A stretch of 43,224 bases of DNA, taken from Bdellovibrionales bacterium. Its GTDB lineage: Bacteria; Bdellovibrionota; Bdellovibrionia; Bdellovibrionales; UBA1609. Position numbers and translations under genes: made by a program. Every line of letters begins with the position of its first letter. The first letter of the stretch is position 1. Shown one piece after another: positions 599-40,477 of this stretch. The notes under the pieces were generated by a model that saw only the letters and a list, made by a program, of their open reading frames with translations, did not search any database and was not told the DNA's origin. The DNA is taken from assembly GCA_028819305.1 (NCBI GenBank), contig JAPPLY010000088.1:1-43224 (forward strand), in the 5' to 3' direction.

Positions 599-975
599 GC
601 CTCTTATTTGCAACCATTTTAAATAAAAGAAGTTTTTTCTTGCAAATATTATCCCTTTAAAATAACAAAAATATAAATAAAATCTAATCGTTAGAACTTT
701 TTCAGCACCGACGATATAGAATAAAAAAGAAGCAGAAAAAATTATTGGAAATTTTAAATAGAGTCAGTATATATTGATCTTGTTTGCATTTTATGGTGTC
801 TGGAAGCTTCTTCCCCATAGAGTAACGAAGGGCGAAGGGCGAAAATAGGTTCCCGTGAAACTTGTGCTCGTAAAAGCGGGAAACGAGGGATTCCCGGTCT
901 GTTCAGTCATATATTGATGAAAATAAAGAGGCTCATAACGAAAAAGCATACTCTCCCCTTTTTTTAAGGAAAAAC

Positions 976-2709
976 ATGAAAATCGCTCTAGCTCAGATCA
1001 ACTCTTTTACCGGGAATATTCTATTTAATGAAAGAAAAATTCAAAACTATATAAAAAAAGCAAAACAGAATAAAGCCTGTCTTATTATCTTTCCCGAAAT
1101 GGTTTTAAACGGTTATTCTCCTTTGGACTTACTAAAGCGAAAGTTTTTTTTACACCAAATTGACCAATCTCTTAAAAAAATTCATAAAACCATGCCAGAA
1201 GATATAGCTGTTTTACTGAGTGCGGCCGGACCGGGTGTGCCTCCTAAGATCTCTGCTTTCTTGTTGGAAAAAAATAAAAAAATAAAAATTTTCTCAAAGA
1301 AAATCCTGGCCAACTACGATGTTTTTGAGGAAGAAAGATATTTTAAAAAAGGACCTGTACAGGATAACTTTTTTATCCTAAAACCCGGAGGAGAAAAAAA
1401 GAAACGACCAGAAAACCTTGTCCCCGTGAAAGCGAAAAACCACCAGACAGATATAATACAGATCCTCCTTTGTGAAGAAACCTGGCATAAACCCCATTTA
1501 CAAGCTCCCCAAAAACCATCTCTTATTATTAGCCTCAATGCTTCCCCTTTCCATTTACAAAAAGATCAAAAGCGAAAGCAAGTGGCCAGAATGTGGATCA
1601 AGAAATACTCCTGCCCTTTTCTTTATATTAACTCCGTAGGAGGACAAGAAGAGCTTATTTTTGATGGAGGAAGTTTTATTTTAGATTCTTCTGGAAAACA
1701 AATTCACCAAAGTCCTTTTTTCCAGGAAGATCTATCCTTCTTCTCTTTTCCTACAAAAAAAAAGCCCCTTCCCCCTCCCTCCAAACAAAAATCGCGTTTT
1801 TCAAAACAAGAGCAAATCACAAAAGCTCTCACTTTTGGATTAAAAGAGTTTATTCAAAAAAATAATTTTCAGCAAGTGCACTTAGGTCTCAGTGGCGGAG
1901 TTGACTCGGCTCTTACAGCGGCTTTAGCCTGTGAAGCCTTAGGAGAAAAAAAGGTGCGGCTTTTTTTTCTGCCCGGTCTGTTCACCTCTTCTCTTTCTAA
2001 ACAATGTGCTCGGCAAATGGCTCATAAATTAAAATGTTCTTTAAATACCCAGTCCATTGAAGAGGTTTATCTGCTTCTTTTAAAAAAGTTTTATATACCA
2101 GTTCCGTCTGAGTTTTCCCGTCGTCTCTTTTCTTCTTCTCAGGAAAGAGAGTCTCAGAAGCCTTCCCTTTTTTCTACACAGATTCCGGATAAAAAAGGCT
2201 TTTTAGATGTGACAAAACAAAATATCCAAGCCCGTCTAAGAAATATATGGCTCATGGCCTATGCTAATAATCATCCTGAAAGCCTCCTTCTTGGTACAGC
2301 CAACAAAAGTGAGCTAGCTTTAGGTTACGGTACTTTGTATGGTGATCTTGCGGGAGGGCTTTTACCTATTGGAGATCTATTTAAAACCGAGGTCTATCAG
2401 CTTGCCCGTTACTTAAAAGTTCCCTCTTCTATTATTACAAGAGAAGCCAGTGCCGAACTCACAGACAATCAAAAAGATACAGACGATCTGCCTCCTTATA
2501 AAAAATTGGATCCAGTTTTACGAAAGCTCATAGAACAGGAAAAAGACCCTGAAAATCCATTTGAAAAACAAATATTACAGTGGATTATAAAAACCGAATT
2601 TAAAAGAAGACAATCTCCTCCCCTTTTAAAAATCAAAGCCCGCTCTTTTGATAGAGGGTGGAGACTTCCCCTTTCTATAAAATATCCGATCTATACCGAA
2701 AAGGTATAG
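976..2709 (+). CDS. nadE: Glutamine-dependent NAD+ synthetase
   Basis: Makes NAD+ from deamido-NAD+, ATP and glutamine in the cytosol. Residues 1-260 are a nitrilase-type glutaminase domain with the expected Glu-Lys-Cys triad: E41 in FPEMVLNGY, K109 before ILANYDVF, and C166 in LLCEETW. Residues 275-577 are the synthetase domain with the PP-loop LSGGVDSA at 305-312 and LLGTANKSE further on. The start has AAGGAAAA just upstream. Two parts look like family A repeat DNA: residues about 137-160, just before the catalytic Cys, and the last codons YTEKV plus the TAG stop. The length (577) fits the family (about 540-580). Its 3' end faces the dnaQ-like gene across a structured repeat. Confidence 0.93.
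   Translation: MKIALAQINSFTGNILFNERKIQNYIKKAKQNKACLIIFPEMVLNGYSPLDLLKRKFFLHQIDQSLKKIHKTMPEDIAVLLSAAGPGVPPKISAFLLEKNKKIKIFSKKILANYDVFEEERYFKKGPVQDNFFILKPGGEKKKRPENLVPVKAKNHQTDIIQILLCEETWHKPHLQAPQKPSLIISLNASPFHLQKDQKRKQVARMWIKKYSCPFLYINSVGGQEELIFDGGSFILDSSGKQIHQSPFFQEDLSFFSFPTKKKPLPPPSKQKSRFSKQEQITKALTFGLKEFIQKNNFQQVHLGLSGGVDSALTAALACEALGEKKVRLFFLPGLFTSSLSKQCARQMAHKLKCSLNTQSIEEVYLLLLKKFYIPVPSEFSRRLFSSSQERESQKPSLFSTQIPDKKGFLDVTKQNIQARLRNIWLMAYANNHPESLLLGTANKSELALGYGTLYGDLAGGLLPIGDLFKTEVYQLARYLKVPSSIITREASAELTDNQKDTDDLPPYKKLDPVLRKLIEQEKDPENPFEKQILQWIIKTEFKRRQSPPLLKIKARSFDRGWRLPLSIKYPIYTEKV
1386..1457 (+). repeat. Family A repeat fragment inside nadE
   Basis: The stretch shares GAAACGACCAGAAAACC with 13811-13830 and ends CCAGACAGATATAA, matching the CGGACGGATATAAC ends at 13908 and 40445. 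It codes a Lys-rich, low-complexity insert (GGEKKKRPENLVPVKAKN) just before the LLCEETW glutaminase motif, where other NadE proteins have a short loop. The reading frame is kept. Confidence 0.65.
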
Positions 2710-9177: not shown

Positions 9178-9260
9178 TTATACCGAATCGGTATAGAATC
9201 CCCGTTTCCACAGAGACATGTTTACGAACCCCAAAATCCGCTTACAGAAACCACAAAATT
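9178..9260. repeat. Family A repeat upstream of mdh
   Basis: TTATACCGAATCGGTATAGA contains the 17-base palindrome TATACCGA-A-TCGGTATA. It is followed after about 40 bp by CCGCTTACAGAAACCACAAAA, the second family A module. This is one of the cleanest copies. Confidence 0.8.
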
Positions 9261-9308
9261 TAAACAAGATTAAGTATAACATAAAAAAGATTTTGTAACG
9301 CTTTGTAT

Positions 9309-9351
9309 AAAAAAACAGATCTCCCGAGGAGTTAGACTCTTCGGGAGATCT
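9309..9351 (-). terminator. Rho-independent terminator of the histone-like gene
   Basis: On the minus strand a stem of about 15 bp (GATCTCCCGAAGAG / CTCCTCGGGAGATC, one G-T pair, loop of 5) is followed by GTTTTTTT. It lies 27 bp past the stop of the Lys-rich protein. Confidence 0.85.
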
Positions 9352-9377
9352 TAAAAACAAATTTCTAATCAGCCGTA

Positions 9378-9590
9378 TTATCTTTTTTTTCTAGCTACTT
9401 TCTTTTTTGCTTTCTTTTTTACCTTCTTCTTAGCTACTTTCTTTTTTGCTTTCTTTTTTACCTTCTTCTTAGCTACTTTCTTTTTTGCTTTCTTTTTTAC
9501 CTTCTTCTTAGCTACTTTCTTCTTTGCTTTCTTTTTTACCTTCTTCTTAGCTACTTTCTTCTTTGCTTTCTTTTTTCTTTTTTCAGCCAT
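9378..9590 (-). CDS. Histone H1-like lysine-rich repeat protein
   Basis: A 70-residue protein made of MAEKR plus five tandem 13-residue units (KKKAKKKVAKKKV), the last ending VARKKR. The composition is almost only Lys, Ala and Val, as in bacterial histone-H1-like DNA-binding proteins (Hc1/AlgP/BpH1 type tails). I infer nucleoid binding through the positive charge. The DNA repeat unit is 39 bp (9381-9575), nearly identical between copies, so copy number could change by slippage. A strong GAGGAGGAACA ribosome site and a good terminator suggest an expressed single gene. There is no folded domain. Confidence 0.8.
   Translation of the reverse strand: MAEKRKKKAKKKVAKKKVKKKAKKKVAKKKVKKKAKKKVAKKKVKKKAKKKVAKKKVKKKAKKKVARKKR
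9381..9575 (-). repeat. Five tandem 39-bp coding repeats
   Basis: Five head-to-tail 39-bp units inside the histone-like gene, each coding KKKAKKKVAKKKV with few silent differences. The in-frame length means copy-number change would not break the protein. Confidence 0.9.
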
Positions 9591-9689
9591 TGTTCCTCCT
9601 CATGTTGAGTGCTGATGTTCATGATGAAAAAAATTCATCCCTATCTTTAAAGAGTGTCACTCCACTTTTTTCTCCAGTCAAATAAAAAA

Positions 9690-11417: not shown

Positions 11418-12764
11418 ATGCTTTATCACTTTGCCTCTTCTGTTCACACTTATGAAGTACAAGAGATTTTAGGAGAAAGTCATACGAGCTTGGTTTACCT
11501 GGCTCAACGTCTTGATAAAGATCTGAAAATCAGACAAGCCTTAATTATTAAACAGTTTAAACAAAAACAAAGCCCTCTCCTAACTTTACAGCTGGAATCC
11601 TTACTAAGAGCTAGACATAGTCCTCATTTAGTAAAGGCGCTTTTTTTTGAAAAATTTAGATCCTATCCAGCTTTAATTTTAGAATACATCTGTAGTGTTA
11701 ATCTAAAACAATTAATGACACAAACAAAACTCAGCCAAAATGAAATAAGAGGGCTTTGCGCCCAGGTTTTAACTGGTTTAGAAGAGTTAAAAAAAAATGA
11801 CCTAGCTCATGGAGATTTAAGCCCTTCTAATATTTTAATAGACACGAAAGGACAAGTGTATCTTACAGACTATGGCCTGGCTAATTACCAAAACGGCGCC
11901 TGTTATGGCACAAAACCCTTTATCGCTCCTGAGATTTACAAAGGGAGGCGAGGGTGTTTTCAATCTGACCTTTTTTCTTTAGGTGTTTTAGAAAAAGTTT
12001 TAAAAGGGCGTTTTACGGAAGAGGAACTGGCTTCTATGGAAAGTAAGCATTTTATCTGTAAAGAAGACCCCCTTCTCGATCCTCACCCTCAAAAAAGAAA
12101 TATACCGCACCGGTATGGAAATGGTGAACTCCGCGCTCTGCCCCTCCCTCAGAAGAAGCTTACAGAAACCACAAAGAGCAAACCAGATCAGAATAACAAA
12201 GCTTTTTCCCCTCTTTCTTACAGTAGCTGTGCTTCCTTAGGTAATAAAGTGCAGCAGATCTTATTTATAAAAAACCATTTCAGCCAGAAAGCTCTTCCTC
12301 CTTCTTCTTTTATACCGCACCGGAGAAATTACACCCTTCAGAACTTTTTTTCTCAGGGAAGAAAAAAAGAGAGGACCAACGGAAAACGGAGGCCCCCCTT
12401 TCGCGAGCAGCTCGGGAATCAAGTGAATAGGTATTTTTTTTCCCGCATAAAAAAATATGCTCTCCCTTGTTATCACCCATTTCTTATAGGAGTTTTATTT
12501 TTTCTTTTTTTATTCACAACTAACCCTTTTATCTCCTATGGAAAATACATCCCCCCTAAAGAACCGGCTAAAGTGCTTATCCGCACTCAGAAATGGGTGT
12601 ACATACAGCTGGCCGGGTTTGAAGGTTATACCCCGATCACTTTCTTTCTTAAAAAAGAGGGCACTTATCAGTTAAAATGGAAAAAACAAAATAAAAATGG
12701 ATTAAAGTATATTTATTTAAAACCGGGACAAGAAGTTTTTTTAACAGATCAGGACTTTCTATAA
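11418..12764 (+). CDS. Ser/Thr protein kinase with membrane segment and PEGA-like tail
   Basis: Residues about 8-225 form a Hanks-type kinase: YEVQEILGESHTSLVYLA (Gly-loop), IIKQF (ATP Lys), HGDLSPSNIL near 130 (HGD in place of HRD, catalytic Asp kept), TDYG near 149 (for DFG), GTKPFIAPEI, and SDLFSLGVL. A long basic linker follows, then a membrane segment near 353-372 (FLIGVLFFLFLFTTNPF) and an outside domain with PEGA-like pattern (VLIRTQKWVYIQLAGFEGYTPITF). The linker holds two family A insertions (residues about 228-258 and 298-335). The catalytic residues look intact, so it is probably active. It follows the Tad-like genes and may control them. Confidence 0.82.
   Translation: MLYHFASSVHTYEVQEILGESHTSLVYLAQRLDKDLKIRQALIIKQFKQKQSPLLTLQLESLLRARHSPHLVKALFFEKFRSYPALILEYICSVNLKQLMTQTKLSQNEIRGLCAQVLTGLEELKKNDLAHGDLSPSNILIDTKGQVYLTDYGLANYQNGACYGTKPFIAPEIYKGRRGCFQSDLFSLGVLEKVLKGRFTEEELASMESKHFICKEDPLLDPHPQKRNIPHRYGNGELRALPLPQKKLTETTKSKPDQNNKAFSPLSYSSCASLGNKVQQILFIKNHFSQKALPPSSFIPHRRNYTLQNFFSQGRKKERTNGKRRPPFREQLGNQVNRYFFSRIKKYALPCYHPFLIGVLFFLFLFTTNPFISYGKYIPPKEPAKVLIRTQKWVYIQLAGFEGYTPITFFLKKEGTYQLKWKKQNKNGLKYIYLKPGQEVFLTDQDFL
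12101..12190 (+). repeat. Family A repeat inside the kinase linker, insertion 1
   Basis: TATACCGCACCGGTATGGAA is followed by AGAAGAAGCTTACAGAAACC (12151-12170). The same 20 bases lie between atpG and atpD (35919-35938). Here they are coding (KKLTETT), read as CAG AAG AAG CTT. The frame is kept right after the end of the kinase fold. Confidence 0.8.
12310..12425 (+). repeat. Family A repeat inside the kinase linker, insertion 2
   Basis: TTATACCGCACCGGAGAA then CCCTTCAGAACTTTTTTTC, resembling CCCCTTCAGAGCTTTTTTCC at 18757. AAAAAGAGAGGACCAACGGA then matches the AAAGAGACGACCAGA block elsewhere. It codes a basic low-complexity linker. Confidence 0.65.
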
Positions 12765-13642: not shown

Positions 13643-13742
13643 AAAAACAAATAAATTGATTTTAGATAATATAAAGAAATAGGCTAGACCAAAAAAGAAA
13701 AACCGATTAAAATTCTTTTTTACGTTTTTAAAGCAAAATATA

Positions 13743-13908
13743 AGGAACGGGTATAGAAAAAAGAAGGTTCATAGCCCCTTTCTCTCCCTCTTTCCTGGGG
13801 GAACAGAAGAAACGACCAGAAAACCCAGTTCACACGAAAACAGGGACCCGCCCTCCTAAAAACGGGAACCTATTTGCAGAGGCGGAGACCGAATCGGACG
13901 GATATAAC
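13743..13908. repeat. Family A repeat ending at the start codon of the PLP enzyme
   Basis: Begins GGAACGGGTATAGAA, contains GAAACGACCAGAAAACCCAG, a CACACGAAAAC and an AAAACGGGAACC segment, and ends CGGACGGATATAAC immediately before ATG 13909. The same tail occurs at 40430-40445. It fills most of the gap after uppP, so the gene's leader and any ribosome site are repeat-derived. Confidence 0.75.
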
Positions 13909-18728: not shown

Positions 18729-18814
18729 TTATACCACACCGATATGGAAAAAAGTCCCCTTCAGAGCTTTTTTCCCTTTGGAAGACCAATAAAGAGACGA
18801 CCAGATAGGTATAA
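18729..18814. repeat. Family A repeat with intact terminal inverted repeats
   Basis: Begins TTATACCACACCGATATGGAA and ends CCAGATAGGTATAA. TTATACC and GGTATAA are a perfect 7-bp inverted pair bounding 86 bp. The interior has CCCCTTCAGAGCTTTTTTCC and AAAGAGACGACCAGA, shared with other copies. Confidence 0.75.
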
Positions 18815-18972
18815 AGTATTTCCTTTTTGCTGTTTTTATAAGCCTAGGATAACAAACACACTTATTTCAATATTTTTTTTATATTTTTAGGAATAGGGTC
18901 TTTAAAAAAACTGTTTTAATTTTATTTTCAGTTTACCAATCGAAACCTTTTGGATGTAAAGAACAATAACTC

Positions 18973-19090
18973 TCTTTTAGAAGAGAATAGAAGTTAAAAG
19001 GCTCAAACATGCGGTTTGCCACAGAGCAACCTTTGGTTGCTCTGTGCTCAAATCCGAACTCGCTTTTACCCCCTATTCTCTTCTAAAAGA
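18973..19090. repeat. Branched structured element, copy 2 (118 bp)
   Basis: The outer arms 18973-18990 and 19073-19090 pair perfectly over 18 bp. The inner hairpin CACAGAGCAACC-TTT-GGTTGCTCTGTG (19020-19046) has a 12-bp stem. The core blocks match copy 1 (2769-2881), but the paired positions differ: GGCT/AGCC in copy 1 is AACC/GGTT here, and the outer arms also change on both sides. Paired changes argue for selection on the fold. Confidence 0.75.
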
Positions 19091-19125
19091 AGTCCCTTTC
19101 TTATAAGATCATATATTTTTACTAA

Positions 19126-19212
19126 GTTTACCAATCAAAACCCTCTGGCTTTAGAGGACAATAGCTTTCTTTTAGTGTTCTAAAGTTTACCAATTAAAAC
19201 CCTTTGGCTTTA
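19126..19212. repeat. Family B repeats at the 3' end of the BatE-like gene
   Basis: Two tandem units start AGTTTACCAATYAAAACCC and end in GGCTTTA. The segment from TTTAGTGTTCTAAAG to CCTTTGGCTTTAA (19172-19212) recurs at 36938-36980 with one mismatch. The second unit supplies the stop codon and last residues (KAKGF) of the BatE-like protein. Confidence 0.75.
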
Positions 19213-19880
19213 AGAGGCAAAATAAAAGAGGTCTTTACCCAACCAGTTTTGGTTGGAGAAATTTGAACCTGGCTCCAGGTCTTTAATGGAGAGTTTTTTT
19301 CTCGCACTTTGACCAGAGTTCCCGCTTTCTGTTCAAACAAAACCGGAGCTTTAGAGTCCGGAGCGCTAAACACCTTGCAGGTTTTTATTAAGCTTCCATA
19401 ATTTTCAAACCGATGATAAAAATAGTAGGCGCTAAAAACATGTGCTATCACCCACAAAGATATTCCCAATGGAAACATCGCCCCGCTCTTTTTTTTAAAA
19501 AGAAGAAAAAGGAGTATAATCCAACTTAAAGCCATAAAAGCTAATAGCATATCTTCTGGTATCCACAGCCAAAAATATTTTTTATCTTCAACAGAATTTA
19601 AGGCCGCTCTTGTTTGTAAACTATAAGGATTTTTAAACAAAATCTGTCGCCAATAGGCTCGAGCCGGATCGGGGGCTTGCTTCTGACGATAAAAAGATAA
19701 AGCTAGGTTAAATCGCCCTGATTCGGATTCTGGATTTATCTCTAAAAACTCAGAAAACAAACGAGAAGCCTCCTCCGTTTGTCCTTCTTGTAAAGAAAGA
19801 AGAGCTTTAGAGAAAAGCTTATCTTGCGCTAAAGTCGAACTTATAAACAAAAAAAGCAATAAAGGCCAAAATTTTTTCAT
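19194..19880 (-). CDS. BatE-like TPR / SH3-domain membrane protein
   Basis: A signal peptide (MKKFWPLLLFLFISSTLA) is followed by two TPR-like units (QTEEASRLFSEFLEINPESESGRFNLALSFYRQ), two membrane segments near 107-150 (LLAFMALSWIILLFLLF; FPLGISLWVIAHVFSAYYF) and a C-terminal SH3-like domain (VFSAPDSKAPVLFEQKAGTLVKV ... GWVKTSFILPL). This layout resembles BatE of aerotolerance operons, but no batA/B/C/D genes are adjacent, so I call it BatE-like only. The last five residues, KAKGF, and the stop lie in a family B repeat and are the same as the end of AtpA. Confidence 0.7.
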   Translation of the reverse strand: MKKFWPLLLFLFISSTLAQDKLFSKALLSLQEGQTEEASRLFSEFLEINPESESGRFNLALSFYRQKQAPDPARAYWRQILFKNPYSLQTRAALNSVEDKKYFWLWIPEDMLLAFMALSWIILLFLLFKKKSGAMFPLGISLWVIAHVFSAYYFYHRFENYGSLIKTCKVFSAPDSKAPVLFEQKAGTLVKVREKNSPLKTWSQVQISPTKTGWVKTSFILPLKAKGF

Positions 19881-28745: not shown

Positions 28746-28890
28746 TTATACTGATCTTGTCTAGTCCCCGCTTCCACGAGAACCAGCTCCGCGGGGACAG
28801 GTTTTGTCATTTCTGTAAGTTTCTTCTAAAGGGTAAACAGAGTTCGGAAAGCACACATTCTTACCCATTTGATACAAAACCAGATCGTAA
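28746..28890. repeat. Family A repeat (with inverted internal module)
   Basis: TTATACTGATCTTGTCTAG begins it; an 8-bp GC-rich stem GTCCCCGC/GCGGGGAC follows; TTTCTGTAAGTTTCTTCT is the reverse complement of the family A module; it fades out near CCAGATCGTAACAGG. Confidence 0.6.
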
Positions 28891-29102: not shown

Positions 29103-29268
29103 TTATACCCAATACGGCTGATTCTCGCTCCCCGCTTTCGGCGGGGACAAGCTTTGCGAGGGTAGGTCCCCATTTCTGCTAAAACAGGGTTTTTTGGGTG
29201 GATTTTTGTTTTTTTCCAAAGAAAAAAGCTCTAAAAGGGACCCTCTTTTCCTGACCGGTTTGGTATAA
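29103..29268. repeat. Family A repeat with terminal inverted repeats (166 bp)
   Basis: TTATACCCAATACGG at one end and CCGGTTTGGTATAA at the other pair imperfectly. Inside is a nested hairpin: TCCCCGC/GCGGGGA (29129-29147) within CTCGC/GCGAG (29124-29160). It ends 17 bp before the FHA gene start. Confidence 0.7.
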
Positions 29269-29285
29269 GATAGGCGGCAATAACA

Positions 29286-29957
29286 ATGAAAATTGGCTTT
29301 TTAAATGGCCCGCTTAGAGGACAGGAGTTTCCTGTTAAAGAGGGTCTTGTCCTCAGCCGAAGTGGGAAGGAAGAGGGGGAGGTCGCTATTGAAGACCCTA
29401 AAGCCTCTAATCCCCACGCTAAAATCGTTAAGAAAAAAGGCCGATTTTACCTACAAGACAGCGAGTCCAAAAACGGAACTTTTTTTAATGATGAAATAAA
29501 CGATTATTTTATCCTGGAACCAGGGGTGCGGTTTCAAATTGGACAAACCTTATTTCAGGTAAAACCCCCCCCCCCCCCCAAAAAATTCTGGCCGGAAATA
29601 GTCACCGAAGAATTAAAAAAACTTTCTCTAAAAGATCAAGCTATAAAGCTTAAACCCATTATTCCCGCTCTCATTCTCACATTCAAATCCGGTGTGCAAA
29701 AAGGAGATCAATGGCATATCCACTATGGTCCCCGAGAAGCCGGCTCCACCAGCTTAGATTTACCCATCCTGGAACCTCAGGCTCCAGATATATGTTTCTT
29801 ACTAAAACCCACCAAAGAATTTGTAATATTCAAAACTCCCTACCCGGAAAAAGTTCTCCTCAATAAAAAGCATATATCAAAGAAAAAGCTAAAAGATGGA
29901 GATGTTATTTCCTTTATCAACACCTCTATTGAAATCAAATATGATAAAAACCCATAG
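29286..29957 (+). CDS. Protein with two FHA domains
   Basis: The first FHA domain (about 1-93) has the standard pattern: GLVLSRSG, ASNPHAKIVKKKGRFYLQDSESKNGTF (the S-x-x-H and N-G blocks for phospho-Thr binding) and QIGQTLFQV. The second (about 125-220) is degenerate: QKGDQWHIHYGPREAG ... VLLNKKHISKKKLKDGDVISF, without a clear S-x-x-H, so it may not bind phosphate. Between them is KPPPPPKKF, coded by 15 Cs in a row (29565-29579). FHA proteins read Thr phosphorylation, so the Hanks kinase in this window is a possible partner. The stop lies in a family B repeat. Confidence 0.85.
   Translation: MKIGFLNGPLRGQEFPVKEGLVLSRSGKEEGEVAIEDPKASNPHAKIVKKKGRFYLQDSESKNGTFFNDEINDYFILEPGVRFQIGQTLFQVKPPPPPKKFWPEIVTEELKKLSLKDQAIKLKPIIPALILTFKSGVQKGDQWHIHYGPREAGSTSLDLPILEPQAPDICFLLKPTKEFVIFKTPYPEKVLLNKKHISKKKLKDGDVISFINTSIEIKYDKNP
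29565..29579 (+). repeat. 15-base poly-C tract inside the FHA gene
   Basis: Fifteen Cs code five Pro between the two FHA domains. Homopolymers of this length slip during replication; a one-base change would remove the second FHA domain. A sequencing length error is also possible. Confidence 0.85.
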
Positions 29958-30130
29958 GGTTTTATTTGGTAAACTGAGGTAAACTCTATGACAAATTTAT
30001 CTCTTTTTAAAACGAATGAAGAAAGATATTACTTTATATAAAAATATTAAAGCCAAAGGGTTTTAATTGGCAAACCTCGGTAAACTCTATAGCTCCATTT
30101 ATCTTACATATTAAAGCCAAAAGGATATAT
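29945..30130. repeat. Family B repeats between the FHA gene and mfd
   Basis: Three imperfect units in reverse orientation: AGGGTTTTATTTGGTAAACT (29954-), TTAAAGCCAAAGGGTTTTAA (from 30047), and TATTAAAGCCAAAAGGATA (to 30130). GGTAAACTCTAT follows the first two. The first unit forms the FHA stop codon and the last ends just before the mfd ATG. Confidence 0.7.
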
Positions 30131-30139
30131 AATAAATCT

Positions 30140-33100
30140 ATGCTAAATTTAGAAATTGTAATTAAACAGTTGAAGTCTGGACAAAACCATAAGATATCCC
30201 TTCCCCCTCATTCTTTCTTAGTGGCTTATCTCCTATTTCGCTCCCATCGGGAGGGGCCCCATATTCTCGTGTCTTCTCAAAAAAAAGTATTTGAACAAAT
30301 AAAAAATATTTTGCTTTTTTTAGAACCTGAGCAGAAAATATTTTCCCTTATAGATATTCCTTTTCCGTGGCAAGAAAGTTTATCTTTTTCCTCTTTAACG
30401 GAAATTCGAAAACTTCAATTAATAGCCCTGGCTCAAAAGGCTTCTCCTTCCGATATTTTTATGATCCATCCCCAAGTTTTAAGACAAAGAGTCGTTTGCC
30501 CCGATTTATTCAGAAAAAAATGTCTTCAATTAAAACCGGGGCAATCCCTCCCCTGGCCTTTTGTCTCCACATTAAAAGAGCTGGGCTACCAAAGCCGAGA
30601 TTATGTAGAACAAATAGGGGAGTTTTCCATGAGAGGGGCTGTGTTGGATATATTTAGTCCTTTTTCCAACCACCCACTACGGTTGGAATTGATGGGGGAG
30701 GAAATAATTCAAATAAAAACTTTCGATATAAGCACACAAAAAAGCCTAAGAGAAATAAAAGAAGCTTTCCTATCTCCTATCAGAGAAGGAGCTGTATATA
30801 ACAAAAAAGAAACTTATCAGAAAATAAAAAAAATGATAAATGCAAGAACGAAAGAAAAAAAACCTTTTCCCTCTTTTAAAGAATGGAATCTTTTTTTAAA
30901 CTCCCCAAATTTTAAAACCGAAGGGTTTAGTTTATATAACGACTTAAAGCCCTGGCGAGCTTCTCTTATTCATCAGTCTCCTTTTTCCATCTTAGATTAT
31001 TTTTTCTCTCCTTTAATATGGAACCTAGAAGCCGCTCATAGCCTGATAAAAACATTAGATTTATGGGAAGAGGAAATAAAAAAATGGTCTGAACAAAATC
31101 CCCTCTATCCCACTTTTTCCGACATCTGTGTTTCTAATAAACAAAACAAATTAAAAAGAGAAATCACTTTTGATCCTTTTTTTATACCGAAACAACATAG
31201 AAAACAGACCCCTTCACACCTCTCTTCCCTAGAAAGAAAAGAAGAGACAACAAGCCCTCCTGGTCCTTGCTCTCATGAATTACAAAAGGAGAAAACAAAC
31301 TACTCTAACTTAATGAATACAAATCTCACCTATCTTACTTCTCCTTCTTTTTTAAAAAACTTTTTTCATCATTCTGACTGGCCTCAAAAAATAAAAGAAC
31401 AAAAAAAGAAAGGCTTTTTCATTTTTATTTGTGTAGAAAAAGAAAAAATAAGAAGAGAGTTAAAAACCGATTTAGAATCCGTTGGTATAAAAGGAAAAGA
31501 GGAAAAGTCCTGGTTTGATATGCAGGAAAGTCAGCAAAAAAACTATCTTACAGTGCATCTTATAAAAAGTTTCCAGTGTGAGCCTTTTATATGGCCCCAG
31601 GAAAACATTTTTCTTTTAAATACACAGAAGTTTAGATCACAGAGACGAGAAATAAAAGACAGTTCTTCTTCTGCCCTTTTCATGAATAAAAAAACTCCTC
31701 AACAAAAAAAGACAACCGCAAAAAAGTATAAACAAGCCCTCCATTTCTCTCAACTTAAACCAGGGGATTTAGCGATACACCGCCAACATGGCCTGGGTCT
31801 ATTTAAAAAACTAGACCTTCTTGATTTTGGAACCGGCTACAACGAATTTTTAATTTTAGAATATAGAAATGGAGATCTACTCTATGTTCCTGTTTACACC
31901 CTCCACCAGGTGCAAAAATACTCAAGTCCCTTATCTCCAACCATAAAAAACCAACTCCTGGATAAACTAGGAGACACAAGATGGCTCAACACAAAGGAAA
32001 AAGTGAAAAAAAAGATGAAGGACATGGCTATGGAGCTTATCAACTTATATAGTGTAAGATCCTCTTTAAAAAGAAAAGTTTTTCCTTCTACAAGTAAGAA
32101 TTTTGACCAGTTTGAAACAGAGTTTCCTTTTACAGAAACTCTGGATCAGAAAAAAGCAATTGAAGATATAATAAAAGATATCAGTCAAAAACAACAACCC
32201 GCCGACCGTCTCATCTGTGGAGACACTGGATTTGGAAAAACAGAAGTAGCCATGAGAGCCGCTTTTAAAGTTATGGAAGAAGGTTTTCAAGTGGGCCTTA
32301 TGGCCCCTACTACTATTTTAAGCTTTCAACATTTCGAAAGATTTAAAGAAAGATTTAAAAATTGGCCTTTCCTCATTCGTTTGCTCAATCGCTTCACTCC
32401 TCCTCCTGAAAGAAAAAACATCCTTAAAGAAACGAAAGAGGGAAAAGTAGATATTCTTATTGGCACTCACCGTATTTTGAGTCAAGACCTCCAATTTAAA
32501 AAACTAGGTCTTCTCATCATTGATGAAGAGCATTTATTCGGAGTAAAAAGCAAAGAGAAATTAAAAAATTGGTACTCTCATGTAGATACCATAAGTCTTT
32601 CCGCCACACCGATTCCCCGAAGCCTTAGTATGAGCTTAAGCGGGATACGGGATATGAGTGTGATTCTCACCCCTCCTTTAAACAGAAAACCTGTACACAC
32701 TTTCATCAGCCCTTTTAAAGAAAGTTTAATTAAAACAGCCATCTTAAAAGAATTAGACAGAAAAGGTCAGGTGATTTTCATTCATAACCGTATTGCTGAT
32801 ATTCACATAATGGAAGACAAAATAAAAAAGCTTCTCCCTACTATACGAATACGCACAGCTCACGGAAAAAAGAAAGACTTACAACAAAAAACAGTTTTAG
32901 ATTTTTTTTACCAAAAGTTTGATCTTCTCCTTTGCACCACTATTGTAGAATCAGGAATGGATTTTCCCAAAGCCAACACTTTATTTATTAACCAAGCCGA
33001 AAAATTTGGTTTGTCTCAATTACATCAACTCCGAGGAAGAATTGGCCGGTCAGACCGATCCTCTTATTGTTATCTTTTGATAGATCCCAGAAAAAACATC

Positions 33101-33853
33101 CCTCAACCCGCTATGGAAAGATTAAAAATCATCCAGGAAAACAATCAGCCCGGAGCAGGCATTGCTGTGGCCCAGTATGATTTAGAAATGCGCGGAGCTG
33201 GGGAATTAATGGGAGCGGAGCAATCCGGATTTTTACAAAATATAGGTTATGAGATGTATTTTGAGTTTTTACAGGAAATGATTTCTTCCTTAAAAACAGG
33301 AAAACCCAAGTCTATACCAGAACCGGATCTGAAATTTAAACAACCGGCCTTCCTCCCTAAAAATTATATCCCTCATGAAAAAACCCGACTCCTTTTTTAT
33401 AAAAAACTGGCTACCGCCAACTCAGAAGAAGAAATAGAACAAGTAAAAGCAGAATTAGAGGATTTTGCAGGGACTTTACCTGAAGAAACAAAAAATTTGA
33501 TTTTACTCTCTCACTTTCGGCTATTAGCAAAAAAAGCCCATATTAGAGAGCTTTCCCATAAACCCCCTTTTCTTTATATGAGCCTGGCAGACTCAACCCC
33601 TTTATCCCCTTCTCAAGTTTTACAATGGATCGAAGAGGGATTATGTGAATGGCAAAACAAAAACACTCTTAAGTTTGCCCTATACCAAACCAGTATAGAA
33701 ATAAAAGACTCCGAACTCCGTTCAAGCCCTAGAAGAAGCTTACAAAAATCCGACCAAAAAGGGGCCCTTTCCCATCCCTGTTCCTCTTCTCCTCAAAACG
33801 AGGATCTTTTACATATATGGAAGCTTTTAAAAAATCTTTTCTATAAAATTTAA
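30140..33853 (+). CDS. mfd: Transcription-repair coupling factor
   Basis: Removes stalled RNA polymerase and recruits UvrABC. The UvrB-like N-terminus has GEFSMRGAVLDIFSP; the RNA-polymerase-binding domain is PGDLAIHRQHGLGLFKKL ... NGDLLYVPVYTL (near 540-590); the motor has Walker A GDTGFGKTE (near 693), DEEH (near 794), SATPIPRSL, TTIVESGMDFPKA (near 933) and QLRGRIGRSDR; a TRCF C-terminal domain follows. At 1237 residues it is about 80 above usual. Two stretches (about 351-378 and 1181-1210) are family A repeat DNA kept in frame. The start sits at the end of a family B repeat with no clear ribosome site. Confidence 0.95.
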   Translation: MLNLEIVIKQLKSGQNHKISLPPHSFLVAYLLFRSHREGPHILVSSQKKVFEQIKNILLFLEPEQKIFSLIDIPFPWQESLSFSSLTEIRKLQLIALAQKASPSDIFMIHPQVLRQRVVCPDLFRKKCLQLKPGQSLPWPFVSTLKELGYQSRDYVEQIGEFSMRGAVLDIFSPFSNHPLRLELMGEEIIQIKTFDISTQKSLREIKEAFLSPIREGAVYNKKETYQKIKKMINARTKEKKPFPSFKEWNLFLNSPNFKTEGFSLYNDLKPWRASLIHQSPFSILDYFFSPLIWNLEAAHSLIKTLDLWEEEIKKWSEQNPLYPTFSDICVSNKQNKLKREITFDPFFIPKQHRKQTPSHLSSLERKEETTSPPGPCSHELQKEKTNYSNLMNTNLTYLTSPSFLKNFFHHSDWPQKIKEQKKKGFFIFICVEKEKIRRELKTDLESVGIKGKEEKSWFDMQESQQKNYLTVHLIKSFQCEPFIWPQENIFLLNTQKFRSQRREIKDSSSSALFMNKKTPQQKKTTAKKYKQALHFSQLKPGDLAIHRQHGLGLFKKLDLLDFGTGYNEFLILEYRNGDLLYVPVYTLHQVQKYSSPLSPTIKNQLLDKLGDTRWLNTKEKVKKKMKDMAMELINLYSVRSSLKRKVFPSTSKNFDQFETEFPFTETLDQKKAIEDIIKDISQKQQPADRLICGDTGFGKTEVAMRAAFKVMEEGFQVGLMAPTTILSFQHFERFKERFKNWPFLIRLLNRFTPPPERKNILKETKEGKVDILIGTHRILSQDLQFKKLGLLIIDEEHLFGVKSKEKLKNWYSHVDTISLSATPIPRSLSMSLSGIRDMSVILTPPLNRKPVHTFISPFKESLIKTAILKELDRKGQVIFIHNRIADIHIMEDKIKKLLPTIRIRTAHGKKKDLQQKTVLDFFYQKFDLLLCTTIVESGMDFPKANTLFINQAEKFGLSQLHQLRGRIGRSDRSSYCYLLIDPRKNIPQPAMERLKIIQENNQPGAGIAVAQYDLEMRGAGELMGAEQSGFLQNIGYEMYFEFLQEMISSLKTGKPKSIPEPDLKFKQPAFLPKNYIPHEKTRLLFYKKLATANSEEEIEQVKAELEDFAGTLPEETKNLILLSHFRLLAKKAHIRELSHKPPFLYMSLADSTPLSPSQVLQWIEEGLCEWQNKNTLKFALYQTSIEIKDSELRSSPRRSLQKSDQKGALSHPCSSSPQNEDLLHIWKLLKNLFYKI
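31192..31275 (+). repeat. Family A repeat inside mfd, insertion 1
   Basis: TTATACCGAAACAACATAGAA resembles the family A head; CCCCTTCACACCTCTCTTCCC and AAAGAAAAGAAGAGACAACA resemble the interior blocks. It codes FIPKQHRKQTPSHLSSLERK, a polar linker between the UvrB-like and RNA-polymerase-binding parts. Confidence 0.65.
33681..33770 (+). repeat. Family A repeat inside mfd, insertion 2 (near the C-terminus)
   Basis: TATACCAAACCAGTATAGAA, then AGAAGAAGCTTACAAAAATCC (33731-33751), the same module as in the kinase but read as CCT AGA AGA AGC (PRRSLQKSD), one base shifted from the kinase frame. It lies past the TRCF C-terminal domain core. Confidence 0.75.
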
Positions 33854-34373: not shown

Positions 34374-35849
<1,476 letters not shown>

Positions 35850-35880: not shown

Positions 35881-35943
35881 CGAACTGGTCAGGAATCCCC
35901 GAATTCTGTTAACTTCCCAGAAGAAGCTTACAGAAACCATAAA
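35881..35943. repeat. Family A repeat between atpG and atpD
   Basis: CGAACTGGTCAGGAATCCCC matches the head region (ACCGGTCAGGAA type near 29250, inverted), and AGAAGAAGCTTACAGAAACC (35919-35938) is identical to 12151-12170 in the kinase gene. Confidence 0.75.
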
Positions 35944-35961
35944 ACCTGCTCTCTATAATAT

Positions 35962-36831
35962 TTACCCCTTCATAGCCTCCGCTCCGCTACTTACTTCTAT
36001 CAACTCTGTTGTAATAGCACTTTGTCTCATCTTATTAAAAGTTAAGGTCAAGCGAGAAACAATATCCTGTGCGTTTCGAGTGGCATTGTCCATAGAAGAC
36101 ATACGCGCCCCATACTCCGCAGCCACACTCTCACACATACAACGATACACCTGTACAGTAAAGTGCTTCTCTATTAAATCTTCCAACAGCTCTTCCGGGG
36201 GAGTTTCAAAAATCATATCCCTGGAAAATTGATTTTGATGAACGAGAGGAGCTTCAGATATATCTATAGGCAAAAAGGTCTCTTTTATCACTTTTTGGGA
36301 AATAACGGATTGAAAGCTATTATAAATAAAATAAATTCCATCATATTTTCCATCGCTAAAGTTGTTCATCAACTGATGAGCTACCTTGCCGGCCAAAGGA
36401 TAAGAGATTTCTCTATCTAATTGAAACATCTCACCCACAGAGGGGATTCCTCTGAACCGGAAATAATTTTTAGCTTTTTTTCCTATAAAGAAAAAACCCA
36501 AATCCTTTTCCTTTTGAGAGTGATAAAAATTCTCAGCAAAACGGCAAATATTATTATTAAACCCCCCACAAAGTCCCCGATCTGAAGTGAGAACCACTAA
36601 CAAAATTTTTTTCATCTTTTCTTTTTTTTCTAAAAGGGGGTGTCTGATATTACAAGAAAGGGCCACATCCGCCATAACAGATAAGATGTTTTCAGCATAG
36701 GGGCGTAAGTTTAAAATACGCATCTGAGCTTTCTTCAAACGAGCGGCAGCCACCATTTTCATAGCTTGAGTAATCTGCTCTGTGTTTTTTACACTAGATA
36801 TGCGACTGCGAATTTTTTTTAAACCAGCCAT
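35962..36831 (-). CDS. atpG: ATP synthase gamma subunit
   Basis: Rotor shaft of F1. [36 protein letters not shown] is the N-terminal helix signature, [17 protein letters not shown] the central one, and [47 protein letters not shown]-type C-terminal helix is complete (here [15 protein letters not shown]). The length (289) is usual. It is separated from atpA by 129 bp containing family B repeats. Confidence 0.97.
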   Translation of the reverse strand: [289 protein letters not shown]

Positions 36832-36920: not shown

Positions 36921-36985
36921 AATTAAAAGCCTTTGGCTTTAGTGTTCTAAAGTTTACCAATTAAAAGCCTTTGGCTTTAAAAATA
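36921..36985. repeat. Family B repeats at the 3' end of atpA
   Basis: AATTAAAAGCCTTTGGCTTTA occurs twice 38 bp apart (36921- and 36959-), joined by GTGTTCTAAAGTTTACC. The second unit codes the last residues and stop of AtpA (KAKGF). AAAGCC-TTT-GGCTTT forms a small hairpin with A/T flanks that could act as a weak terminator inside the operon. Confidence 0.75.
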
Positions 36986-38478
36986 GCTTTAAAATCCCCA
37001 AGATTTTTTTTCATTTTAGCTTCCAATTCTTCCGTAATTTTTTTTTCTTTTCTTATTTCTGCCAATAAATCTGAGCACCGTGTTTTTAAAAAATCTTTTA
37101 ATTGTTTTTCATAAAGAGGCACTTTTTTCTCCTCAATAGAATCCAGATAACCTTTCGTGGCAGAATAAATAAAGATAACTTGCATTTCTATATCTAAAGG
37201 CTCTCCTTGATTTTGTTTTAAAATTTCCACTAACCGGCGACCTCTTTCCAATTGAGCTTGAGAAGTTTTATCCAGATCAGAGGCAAAAGCCGCAAAAGCT
37301 TCTAAAGCACGAAATTGGGCTAATTCCAGTTTTAAACTCCCCGCTATTTGTTTAATAGCTTTTATTTGCGCGGCCCCTCCGACACGAGAAACCGATTTTC
37401 CCACATGAATAGCCGGACGAATTCCTTTATGAAAAAGATCCGTTTCTAAAAAAATCTGTCCGTCCGTAATGGAAATAACATTCGTAGGTATATAGGCAGA
37501 AATATCTCCAGCTTGGGTTTCAATAATAGGAAGAGCTGTTAAAGAACCCCCTCCCTCCTTTTCATCCATCTTAGCCGCTCTCTCCAATAAACGGGAATGA
37601 ATATAAAAAACATCCCCTGGAAAAGCCTCCCTTCCAGGAGGACGACGCAGCAGCAAAGATAATTGACGGTAAGCTTGAGCTTGTTTGGTAAGATCATCAT
37701 AAATTATTAAAGCGTGCTCCCCTTTATCCCTAAAATACTCCGCCATAGTGACACCGGCATAGGGAGCTAAAAATTGTAAAGGCGCGGGATCCGAGGCTGT
37801 CGCGGAGACGACAGTTGTATATTCCATCGCCCCCGCCATTTTAAGTTTTTCTACGACCCCCGCCAAAGTGGATCTTTTTTGACCAATAGCTACATAGAAA
37901 CATTTTACCTCTTTTCCTTTTTGATTAAGGATAGTATCTATAGCAATAGTTGTTTTTCCTGTTTGCCGATCACCGATAATAAGTTCCCTTTGTCCCCTTC
38001 CAATAGGAATAAGAGCATCAATAGCCTTAATTCCTGTTTGAAGAGGTTCAAACACGGGCCGGCGATTGATAATCCCCGGGGCTTTTCTCTCCACTTCCAA
38101 AAAATCATCTGATTTTATAGGCCCCAAACCATCTAAGGGCCTACCTAAGGCATCCACCACCCTTCCTAATAAAGAGGGCCCTACCGGCACTTGAACAATT
38201 TTTCTTGTTCTTTTCACCTCCATGCCTTCTGAAATCGCTTCATCATCACCTAAGATAACCACCCCTAAGCTCTCTTTTTCCAAATTAAAGACCATTCCAA
38301 ATAGGTCTTCTGAAAAGGCCACCAACTCTCCAGCCATAGCCTGTTCCAAACCATATATTTGACATACCCCATCTCCCACAGACAGCACTTGCCCCACTTC
38401 TTGCATAGAAAGCCTTTTCTGATAATTTTGAATTTGATCCTTTAGGATCCGGCTAATTTCACTAGCTTGTATAGTCAT
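36961..38478 (-). CDS. atpA: ATP synthase alpha subunit
   Basis: Regulatory/structural F1 subunit. Walker [52 protein letters not shown] and the arginine-finger segment [15 protein letters not shown] are intact; the N-terminus has [19 protein letters not shown]. The length (505) is standard. It overlaps atpH by 17 bp. The last five residues (KAKGF) and stop are inside a family B repeat and are the same as those of the BatE-like protein at 19194-19880, which shares no other similarity. Confidence 0.97.
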
Positions 38479-39022
38479 GAAAATTTCTCCTTATTTGGTT
38501 TTTCATCTGTGTTAAATGAAATAACAAAGTATCATCAAAAATAAAACCCTGGGCACGAACTCTTAGACCCCCTATGATTTTTTGAGAAGCTTTTTTCTCT
38601 GTCAGAAAAATTTTTTTACCAAAAAAACCCTCTAATGTTTTTTCTAAGGATTTTTGTAAATCCGGGGACAAAGGCTCGACAGACTCCACCTCTGCTAAAA
38701 GGACCCCTTTCATCTGATTTTCTATATCTGTTAAACAAGCCAGTATAGCATTTAACTCTTTCCATCTTTTTTTATCCAGCAAAAAAAGCAGAAAAGAGCA
38801 AATCAACTTGTCAAAGGTAAATTTTTCAAAAATTTTTTTTAAGCCCTCCTTTTTCTCTTTAACGGGTATAACAGGAGAAATAAAAAAAGCTTTTATCTCA
38901 GAAAGATCTAACACCTTTTTTAATTCTTTTAACTCTTTTAAAAAGGAAAAAAAATCTTCCTCTTGTTCTTTTTTAAAATTCTCTTTCAAAGCCCTGGCAT
39001 AATTATAAGCAACGAGACTCAT
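38462..39022 (-). CDS. atpH: ATP synthase delta subunit
   Basis: Peripheral-stalk subunit atop F1. From ATG 39022 it reads [16 protein letters not shown], the usual delta start (YA.AL), with the C-terminal [26 protein letters not shown] block typical of OSCP/delta. This gives 186 residues, the family's size. AAGGAA precedes it. The ORF track begins at 39142, adding 40 residues (MSFLVLSFFSHRTRSSQG...) that come from a family A repeat and are not part of the protein. It overlaps atpA by 17 bp. Confidence 0.93.
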
Positions 39023-39042
39023 CTCTGATTCCTTTTTCTGAG

Positions 39043-39130
39043 TTACACCGAATCGGTATAGAATTTGTATTCCTTCAAAACTTCTTTTTCCTTGAGAGCT
39101 TCGGGTCCTGTGGGAGAAAAAAGAAAGGAC
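39043..39130. repeat. Family A repeat between atpF and atpH
   Basis: TTACACCGAATCGGTATAGAA contains the palindrome ACCGA-A-TCGGT; AAAAAGAAAGGACCAAAAAGC resembles the AAAGAGACGACC block. It is open in the frame of atpH and so extends the ORF upstream of the true start. Confidence 0.7.
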
Positions 39131-39147
39131 CAAAAAGCTCAAATCAA

Positions 39148-40135: not shown

Positions 40136-40477
40136 CCACCCATTTATATTTTTAAACTGAACCCAATTAGTCTAGTTCAACTCATTGGTGTTTTATAATT
40201 CGGACACACATAGAAATTTTTTTACTACGTTATGACCGAACCAGTGTATAGGAAGTTACGCCTTTCAAAGTCTCTCTTCCCGGGAGAAGAAAAAAGAGAC
40301 AAAAAAAACCTGTCTCCGCAGAAGCGGGAAGCTATTATCTGATTTGCTTCCCAACCATAATGAGCACCCCATTTCTTTCAGCCTGTCCTCCCGGAAGTCT
40401 GACCTCGTAGAAACGGGGCTGGAGAGCAAGCCGGACGGATATAACTATAAAAACATGGTTTTTTACACGAGACAAGT
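40136..40477. repeat. 342-bp gap between bactofilin and the atp operon, mostly one family A copy
   Basis: From 40230 to 40445 is a long family A copy: TTATGACCGAACCAGTGTATAGGAA head, CTCTCTTCCCGGGAGAAGAAAA and GAGACAAAAAAAACCTGTC interior, and CCGGACGGATATAAC tail. The plus-strand ORF 40344-40577 runs through it and is not a gene. The remainder upstream of the b'-type gene is AT-rich and could hold the operon promoter. Confidence 0.65.

Follow-up and report, generated by a model that had tools for sequence, protein, structure and literature searches.

The question raised by this locus is how the gene of a membrane-anchored Ser/Thr protein kinase came to hold, in its own reading frame, two segments related to a repeat that is also found between genes. 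The gene lies in a stretch of 43,224 nt (hereafter the window), which corresponds to contig C22 of a draft bacterial genome. The evidence presented below makes it very probable that both segments are copies of a high-copy, non-autonomous, TA-inserting MITE, which has two open forward frames and survives inside genes as translated inserts. As the atpD gene was closest to assorted MAGs with 72-76% identity, including Bacteriovoracaceae and Bdellovibrionales, with others at similar identity, we infer that the source is a small-genome member of this broad Bacteriovoracaceae/Bdellovibrionales group.

The initial annotation had described two insertions of a repeat family (family A) in the kinase gene, and both were confirmed with models built with the kinase masked, giving leave-one-out E-values of 2.3e-17 and 6.3e-7. 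Both copies are in frame and free of stops within the ORF, which also encodes a C-terminal membrane segment (Table 1). The peptide derived from copy 1 is about IPHRYGNGELRALPLPQKKLTETTKSKPDQN and that from copy 2 is FIPHRRNYTLQNFFSQGRKKERTNGKRRPPFREQLGNQVNRY, with TATACCGCACCGG common to the two copies without mismatches. In copy 1, a TA is present at 12101-12102 and at 12194-12195, read as a target duplication, and the net insertion is probably of 93 nt, equivalent to 31 codons. The empty site modelled in this way reads AGA AAT AAC AAA (R N N K), compared to R R K K and R K K R in the same-genus genomes G001 and G002, respectively; because the site is poorly conserved, 31 or 32 codons are both possible in the alignment.

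Table 1. Kinase host gene and copies of the element located in the window.
Feature	Coordinates	Strand	Evidence
Host gene, membrane-anchored Ser/Thr protein kinase, 448 aa	11418..12764	+	PF00069 E 7.4e-23, PF07714 E 1.5e-18; orthologues G001, G002
Element copy 1 in kinase, type 1 short form	12101..12196	+	leave-one-out nhmmer E 2.3e-17; covariance-model match 74.2 bits
Element copy 2 in kinase, type 2, net ~41 codons	about 12311..12433	+	leave-one-out nhmmer E 6.3e-7 and 3.2e-6
Element copy	770..907	-	nhmmer E 1.3e-10
Partial copy, in frame in NAD synthetase gene (976-2709; PF02540, PF00795)	1370..1436	+	nhmmer E 2.3e-7
Weak antisense copy, same NAD synthetase ORF (976-2709)	2096..2191	-	nhmmer E 5.2e-5
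Element copy	9178..9279	+	nhmmer E 3.3e-7
Element copy, type 2	13739..13847	+	nhmmer E 5e-10
Partial element copy	18730..18804	+	nhmmer E 7.6e-7
Element copy	28746..28874	-	nhmmer E 7.5e-21
Element copy	29165..29267	-	nhmmer E 8.3e-11
Copy near 3' end of mfd ORF (30140-33853), after TRCF domain	33681..33793	+	nhmmer E 1.3e-8; Pfam
Partial copy, intergenic between atpD and atpG	35881..35953	+	nhmmer E 4.8e-9; flanking genes by Pfam
Copy, antisense, N-terminal end of atpH ORF (38462-39142), ahead of OSCP domain (PF00213 from residue 44)	39044..39141	+	nhmmer E 5.2e-9
Element copy, type 2	40235..40332	+	nhmmer E 3.6e-11

When kinase orthologues from related genomes were aligned, as had been proposed, the two inserts were absent from 8/8 of them (the same-genus G001 and G002, G003, and five more distant ones), and the flanks aligned on both sides. 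Subtraction of the inserts leaves 376 residues (448 - 31 - 41), compared to 372, counted from Met, in the closest orthologue, that of G001. The same linker was not present in orthologues without family copies, as the genomes of G001 and G002, in which cross-genome searches detected no copy of the family, lack both inserts. The initial annotation had located both insertions in the linker between the end of the kinase fold and the membrane segment. This location is correct for copy 2, the only one of the two in the juxtamembrane linker. Copy 1, in contrast, is probably within the kinase C-lobe and not after the kinase fold, judging from the sequence, because it comes directly after LLDPHPQKR, which in our reading resembles kinase subdomain XI (DPxxR), and because the Pfam kinase match in the uninterrupted G001 orthologue continues to residue 259, beyond the insertion point at ~228 (in the present kinase, it reaches residues 191 to 219).

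A module of 20 bases shared with a non-coding copy between atpG and atpD had also been claimed, and the identity turned out to be one base longer: positions 12150-12170, in the kinase, and 35918-35938, in an intergenic region flanked, according to Pfam, by atpD (34443-35831) and atpG (35962-36831), have the 21-mer CAGAAGAAGCTTACAGAAACC in common. Allowing up to 3 mismatches, this pattern had 3 matches in the window compared to 0 in 100 shuffles. The linker is poorly conserved among kinase orthologues, as would be expected if it were merely a fast-evolving, low-complexity region whose likeness to other repeats is incidental. This explanation is virtually untenable in view of the leave-one-out E-values, of the exact match to a distant intergenic copy and of the presence of the same sequence in dozens of unrelated genes; the existence of a genome-wide family already refutes it.

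The extent of this family was followed through the whole genome (1.98 Mb in 88 contigs, 93% complete, 0.1% contaminated). Searches with a pattern for the core yielded 33 matches vs 0 in the control, and those with a pattern for the 3' end 113 vs 3. A sequence-only covariance model detected at least 141 copies, a lower bound as 150 of 1877 candidates were scored. With two profile models, 187 separate copies were found in 534 kb and 0 in the reversed sequence; the 534 kb comprise stretches around matches plus the window, so this sample is enriched and its copy density is not that of the genome. If the density in the window (14 copies in 43 kb) is extrapolated, the genome would have several hundred copies, and 150-200 of its proteins might be modified. 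The same two profile models did not find the family in the loci of relatives that were tested. The number of contigs could point to the repeats being artefacts of assembly or binning, but the copies differ in sequence, occupy many genes, are located in the interior of contigs and preserve reading frames, and the contamination estimate is low, so that an artefact is hardly credible.

The short form of the element (~93 bp net) has the sequence TTATACCGAACCGGTATGGAATTTGCG..CTCCGAACTCCGTTCACCCTT..GAAGAAGCTTACAGAAACCACAAAA..TCAAACAAGATCAGTATAA, to which GC-hairpin units (tgtcctcgcgaaagcgggga) are added in longer forms. The ends are TTATACYGA...ATCAGTATAA, and terminal inverted repeats are present but imperfect (TTATACCGAACCGG / TTATACTGATCTTG). 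Sizes range from ~97 to 200 bp, commonly ~97-140 bp, which is too short for a transposase gene, and hence the element is non-autonomous. No consensus RNA fold or conserved hairpin was found among 25 copies, and in a search of the window against Rfam at the gathering threshold the element was unmatched, a tRNA being the only match. The lengths cluster at 97, 118 and 139, that is, in steps of 21 nt or 7 codons (for example, 12101-12196 in the window, L206:11439-11556 and L248:8810-8948), which suggests that a hairpin unit has been gained or lost, incidentally without a change of frame.

Copies were scored as being inside a gene when the ORF around them had a minimum of 150 aa and extended for 25 codons or more on either side. 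By this measure, 64/187 copies were inside ORFs, spread over 56 of them, a share of one-third that holds for the sampled stretches, chosen around matches. Most of these 64 copies were on the gene strand (57, vs 7 antisense; p 8e-11). The host genes, identified by Pfam or solved structures, include those for GlmU, crotonase, GcvT, HflX, 2-oxoacid dehydrogenase E2, AroB (two copies), TilS, HhH-GPD glycosylase, biotin ligase, LipB, RimM, LD-carboxypeptidase, HisS (near the start), PolyA polymerase, YicC and a GGDEF protein. The two copies in the AroB-like dehydroquinate synthase ORF (L209:4931-6217, minus strand) are separate and both in frame, as in the kinase.

Three of these hosts were compared with solved structures. 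In GlmU, the element is 97 nt long and the net insert with respect to PDB 5vmk, G001 and G003 was of 31 codons or 93 nt; G001 retains the TTA codon of the insertion site. There is a single copy of GlmU in this genome; therefore, the gene bearing the insert is presumably the functional one. In the crotonase, homology ends at position 46 of the query (43 of the homologue) and restarts at 88 (47 of the homologue), giving a net insert of 38 codons or 114 nt, where the element measures 118 nt. As the net insert equals the element length minus four (L-4) in both cases, duplication of TA fits the two of them. For GcvT, the net insert of ~47 codons against an element of 139 nt fits L-4 less exactly, a looser fit that is expected in a variable loop. 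In all three comparisons, the insert falls between matched segments.

In an initial test, the length was a multiple of three in 50/51 copies in ORFs, compared to 31/80 outside them. As this test was partly circular, the ORFs being chosen as intact, it was replaced by an excision test, in which L-4 bases were removed in silico from 130 full-length copies and the joined flanks were required to form an ORF extending over 60 or more codons on either side. Of the 40 spanning sites obtained, the excised length was a multiple of three in 40/40 and the element was open in 39/40; with 100 codons required on each side, the result was 28/28. Copies outside long ORFs were distributed over the three length residue classes (31, 29 and 20), and lengths other than 3n were confined to them.

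This frame rule bears on whether the inserts reach the protein. As conserved single-copy enzymes are among the hosts, GlmU for instance, and 31 additional amino acids could be costly for them, the segments might be spliced from the mRNA as mini-introns, or bypassed by the ribosome, and so be absent from the protein. Neither process needs a 3n length or an open frame, yet both were found at nearly all of the excised sites, and the short form is without conserved RNA structure. We thus consider removal of the inserts from the message or its reading to be improbable.

The forward strand of the element is stop-free in two frames, encoding LYRTGQEFANSELRSPLGKSLQKPQN..SNKISI and IPNRYGNCELRTPFTLGKKLTETTK..KQDQYN. 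Inside ORFs these two consensus-open frames are used by 24 and 23 copies, and the third frame by 7. Outside long ORFs, 36% and 33% of the copies are open in these two frames, compared to 8-11% in dinucleotide shuffles. Therefore, two-frame openness is a property of the element, and not only of selection after insertion. The recurrence of two peptide sequences across ~56 unrelated ORFs could also mean that they have been positively selected as modules with a common role, such as a localisation or protein-binding tag, instead of being tolerated selfish DNA. However, the two frames yield different peptides, which are used almost equally, most copies are outside long ORFs, and the position of the inserts between matched segments in the three structural comparisons is that predicted by tolerance. 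Selection for a common function appears, accordingly, an unlikely explanation.

If the kinase inserts are copies of a MITE, as we favour, the element would insert at TA and duplicate this dinucleotide, as its net length of L-4 points to, and would be without a coding function of its own. Having two forward frames free of stops, a copy that entered a gene with a suitable orientation and frame would be translated, adding ~31-46 residues at a tolerant site with a near-neutral effect, and so would persist, while copies with the wrong frame, orientation or length would be purged by selection. In the kinase, one copy would occupy a loop of the C-lobe and the other the juxtamembrane linker, and production of the enzyme presumably continues.

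Duplication of TA also fits the rule of multiples of three found after excision of L-4. Flank statistics for a target duplication gave weak signals, and as the TA belongs to the ends of the element, they are unable to show duplication. With respect to the source of mobility, DDE_3, sought as the transposase of an autonomous IS630/Tc1-type IS, and Y1_Tnp, sought as a REP/RAYT transposase, had 0 matches in the genome. A partial DDE_Tnp_1 was discarded as mobiliser, being without element ends and with no element copy nearby, and carriage of the element by phages was also discarded after no exact 21-mer was found in viral contigs.

An initial cross-genome search outside the source genome gave marginal matches only (E ~1e-3). 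A wider search detected a genuine related family in two genomes of genus g14 (G030 and G061, loci L262-L285), another genus of the same taxonomic family. This g14 MITE (TTATACTGATCCTGTTTGAATTTT..CATTCCCGC..GCGGGAATG..AAAATTCAAACAGGATCAGTATAA) is a near-perfect palindrome in which the ends are TTATACTGATCCTGTTTGAA and the core is CCCGCTTTCGCGGG. Of its copies, about 31, 1 is in a long ORF. Both families have in common the right end TTCAAACA(A/G)GATCAGTATAA, and the GC-hairpin core of the g14 MITE matches the longer forms of the present family. The g14 MITE has long terminal inverted repeats, and the present family has a different left arm (TTATACCGAACCGGTATAGAA..CTTACAGAAACC). The g14 family is likely an element of ancestral type. 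We tentatively suggest, with rather more doubt than conviction, that a palindromic intergenic MITE, classical in the sister genus, gained here a new left arm open in two frames and then colonised proteins en masse. If true, this would represent an independent origin of protein-inserting selfish DNA similar to the Rickettsia palindromic elements (RPEs) outside the Rickettsiales.

RPEs, as outlined in a 2024 review on MITEs (PMC10969869, citing Ogata 2000, 2002), are of ~100-150 bp, have many copies and are open, often in frame in unrelated housekeeping genes. Like them, the present family is short, numerous and recurrently found in frame in unrelated protein-coding genes. Unlike them, it has a short form without a conserved hairpin, although the sister-genus g14 family is palindromic, it uses two forward frames, and its lineage, judging from gene content, would not belong to the Rickettsiales. 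The 56 host ORFs in about a quarter of the genome exceed the 44 RPEs in total of R. conorii (PMC10969869), and model R1 had no match in the loci of the Rickettsia genome G082. Because the short form is not palindromic, the family was filed as an RPE analogue and MITE derivative and not as an RPE.

With bacterial MITEs such as ERIC, RUP, Correia and the Coxiella QMITEs, the family shares its small size, non-autonomous character, TTATAC/GTATAA ends and likely TA target, and it has a related palindromic family in a sister genus. MITEs are normally located between genes (PMC10969869), whereas about one-third of the copies sampled here are inside long ORFs. Intragenic, ORF-bearing small mobile sequences have been reported in enterobacteria and Coxiella, as outlined in PMC2759123 and PMC5896051. 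Our literature search yielded no paper in which Bdellovibrio and miniature inverted-repeat elements are mentioned together.

Descriptions of selfish DNA that often enters proteins in frame come mainly from Rickettsia, and the occurrence of this phenomenon elsewhere was left open in the 2024 review (PMC10969869). Selfish DNA appears, on sequence grounds, to be part of many working proteins in the present genome, which would constitute a second, larger and apparently independent case. As this system combines clean frame rules, same-genus relatives free of the family and a sister element of likely ancestral type, a stepwise study of the passage from intergenic MITE to translated segments is possible. 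For annotators, odd inserts of 31 to 46 residues in conserved enzymes of this group would be mobile DNA, not domains.

Some additional observations were made in the window. The AtpH (delta) ORF (38462-39142, minus strand) has a TTG start, and its first ~40 residues come from the antisense copy at 39044-39141; the true start codon may be located further inside the ORF. Another repeat family (..GTTTACCAATTAAAACCCTTTGGCTTTAA.. with AAAAGGCTCAAACATGCGTTTTGCCACAGAGC, and inverted repeats of 25-28 bp) is present at 2764-2896, 18917-19213, 29948-30090 and 36921-36980, and also in loci L020 and L147. A stretch resembling it (GTCGCTTTGTGGCAAAAAGCC) was detected in locus L263 of G061, so this second family may be shared between genera. 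Finally, positions 9346-9591 contain a tandem 39-bp repeat, the minus strand of which would encode a lysine/alanine-rich, histone H1-like tail.
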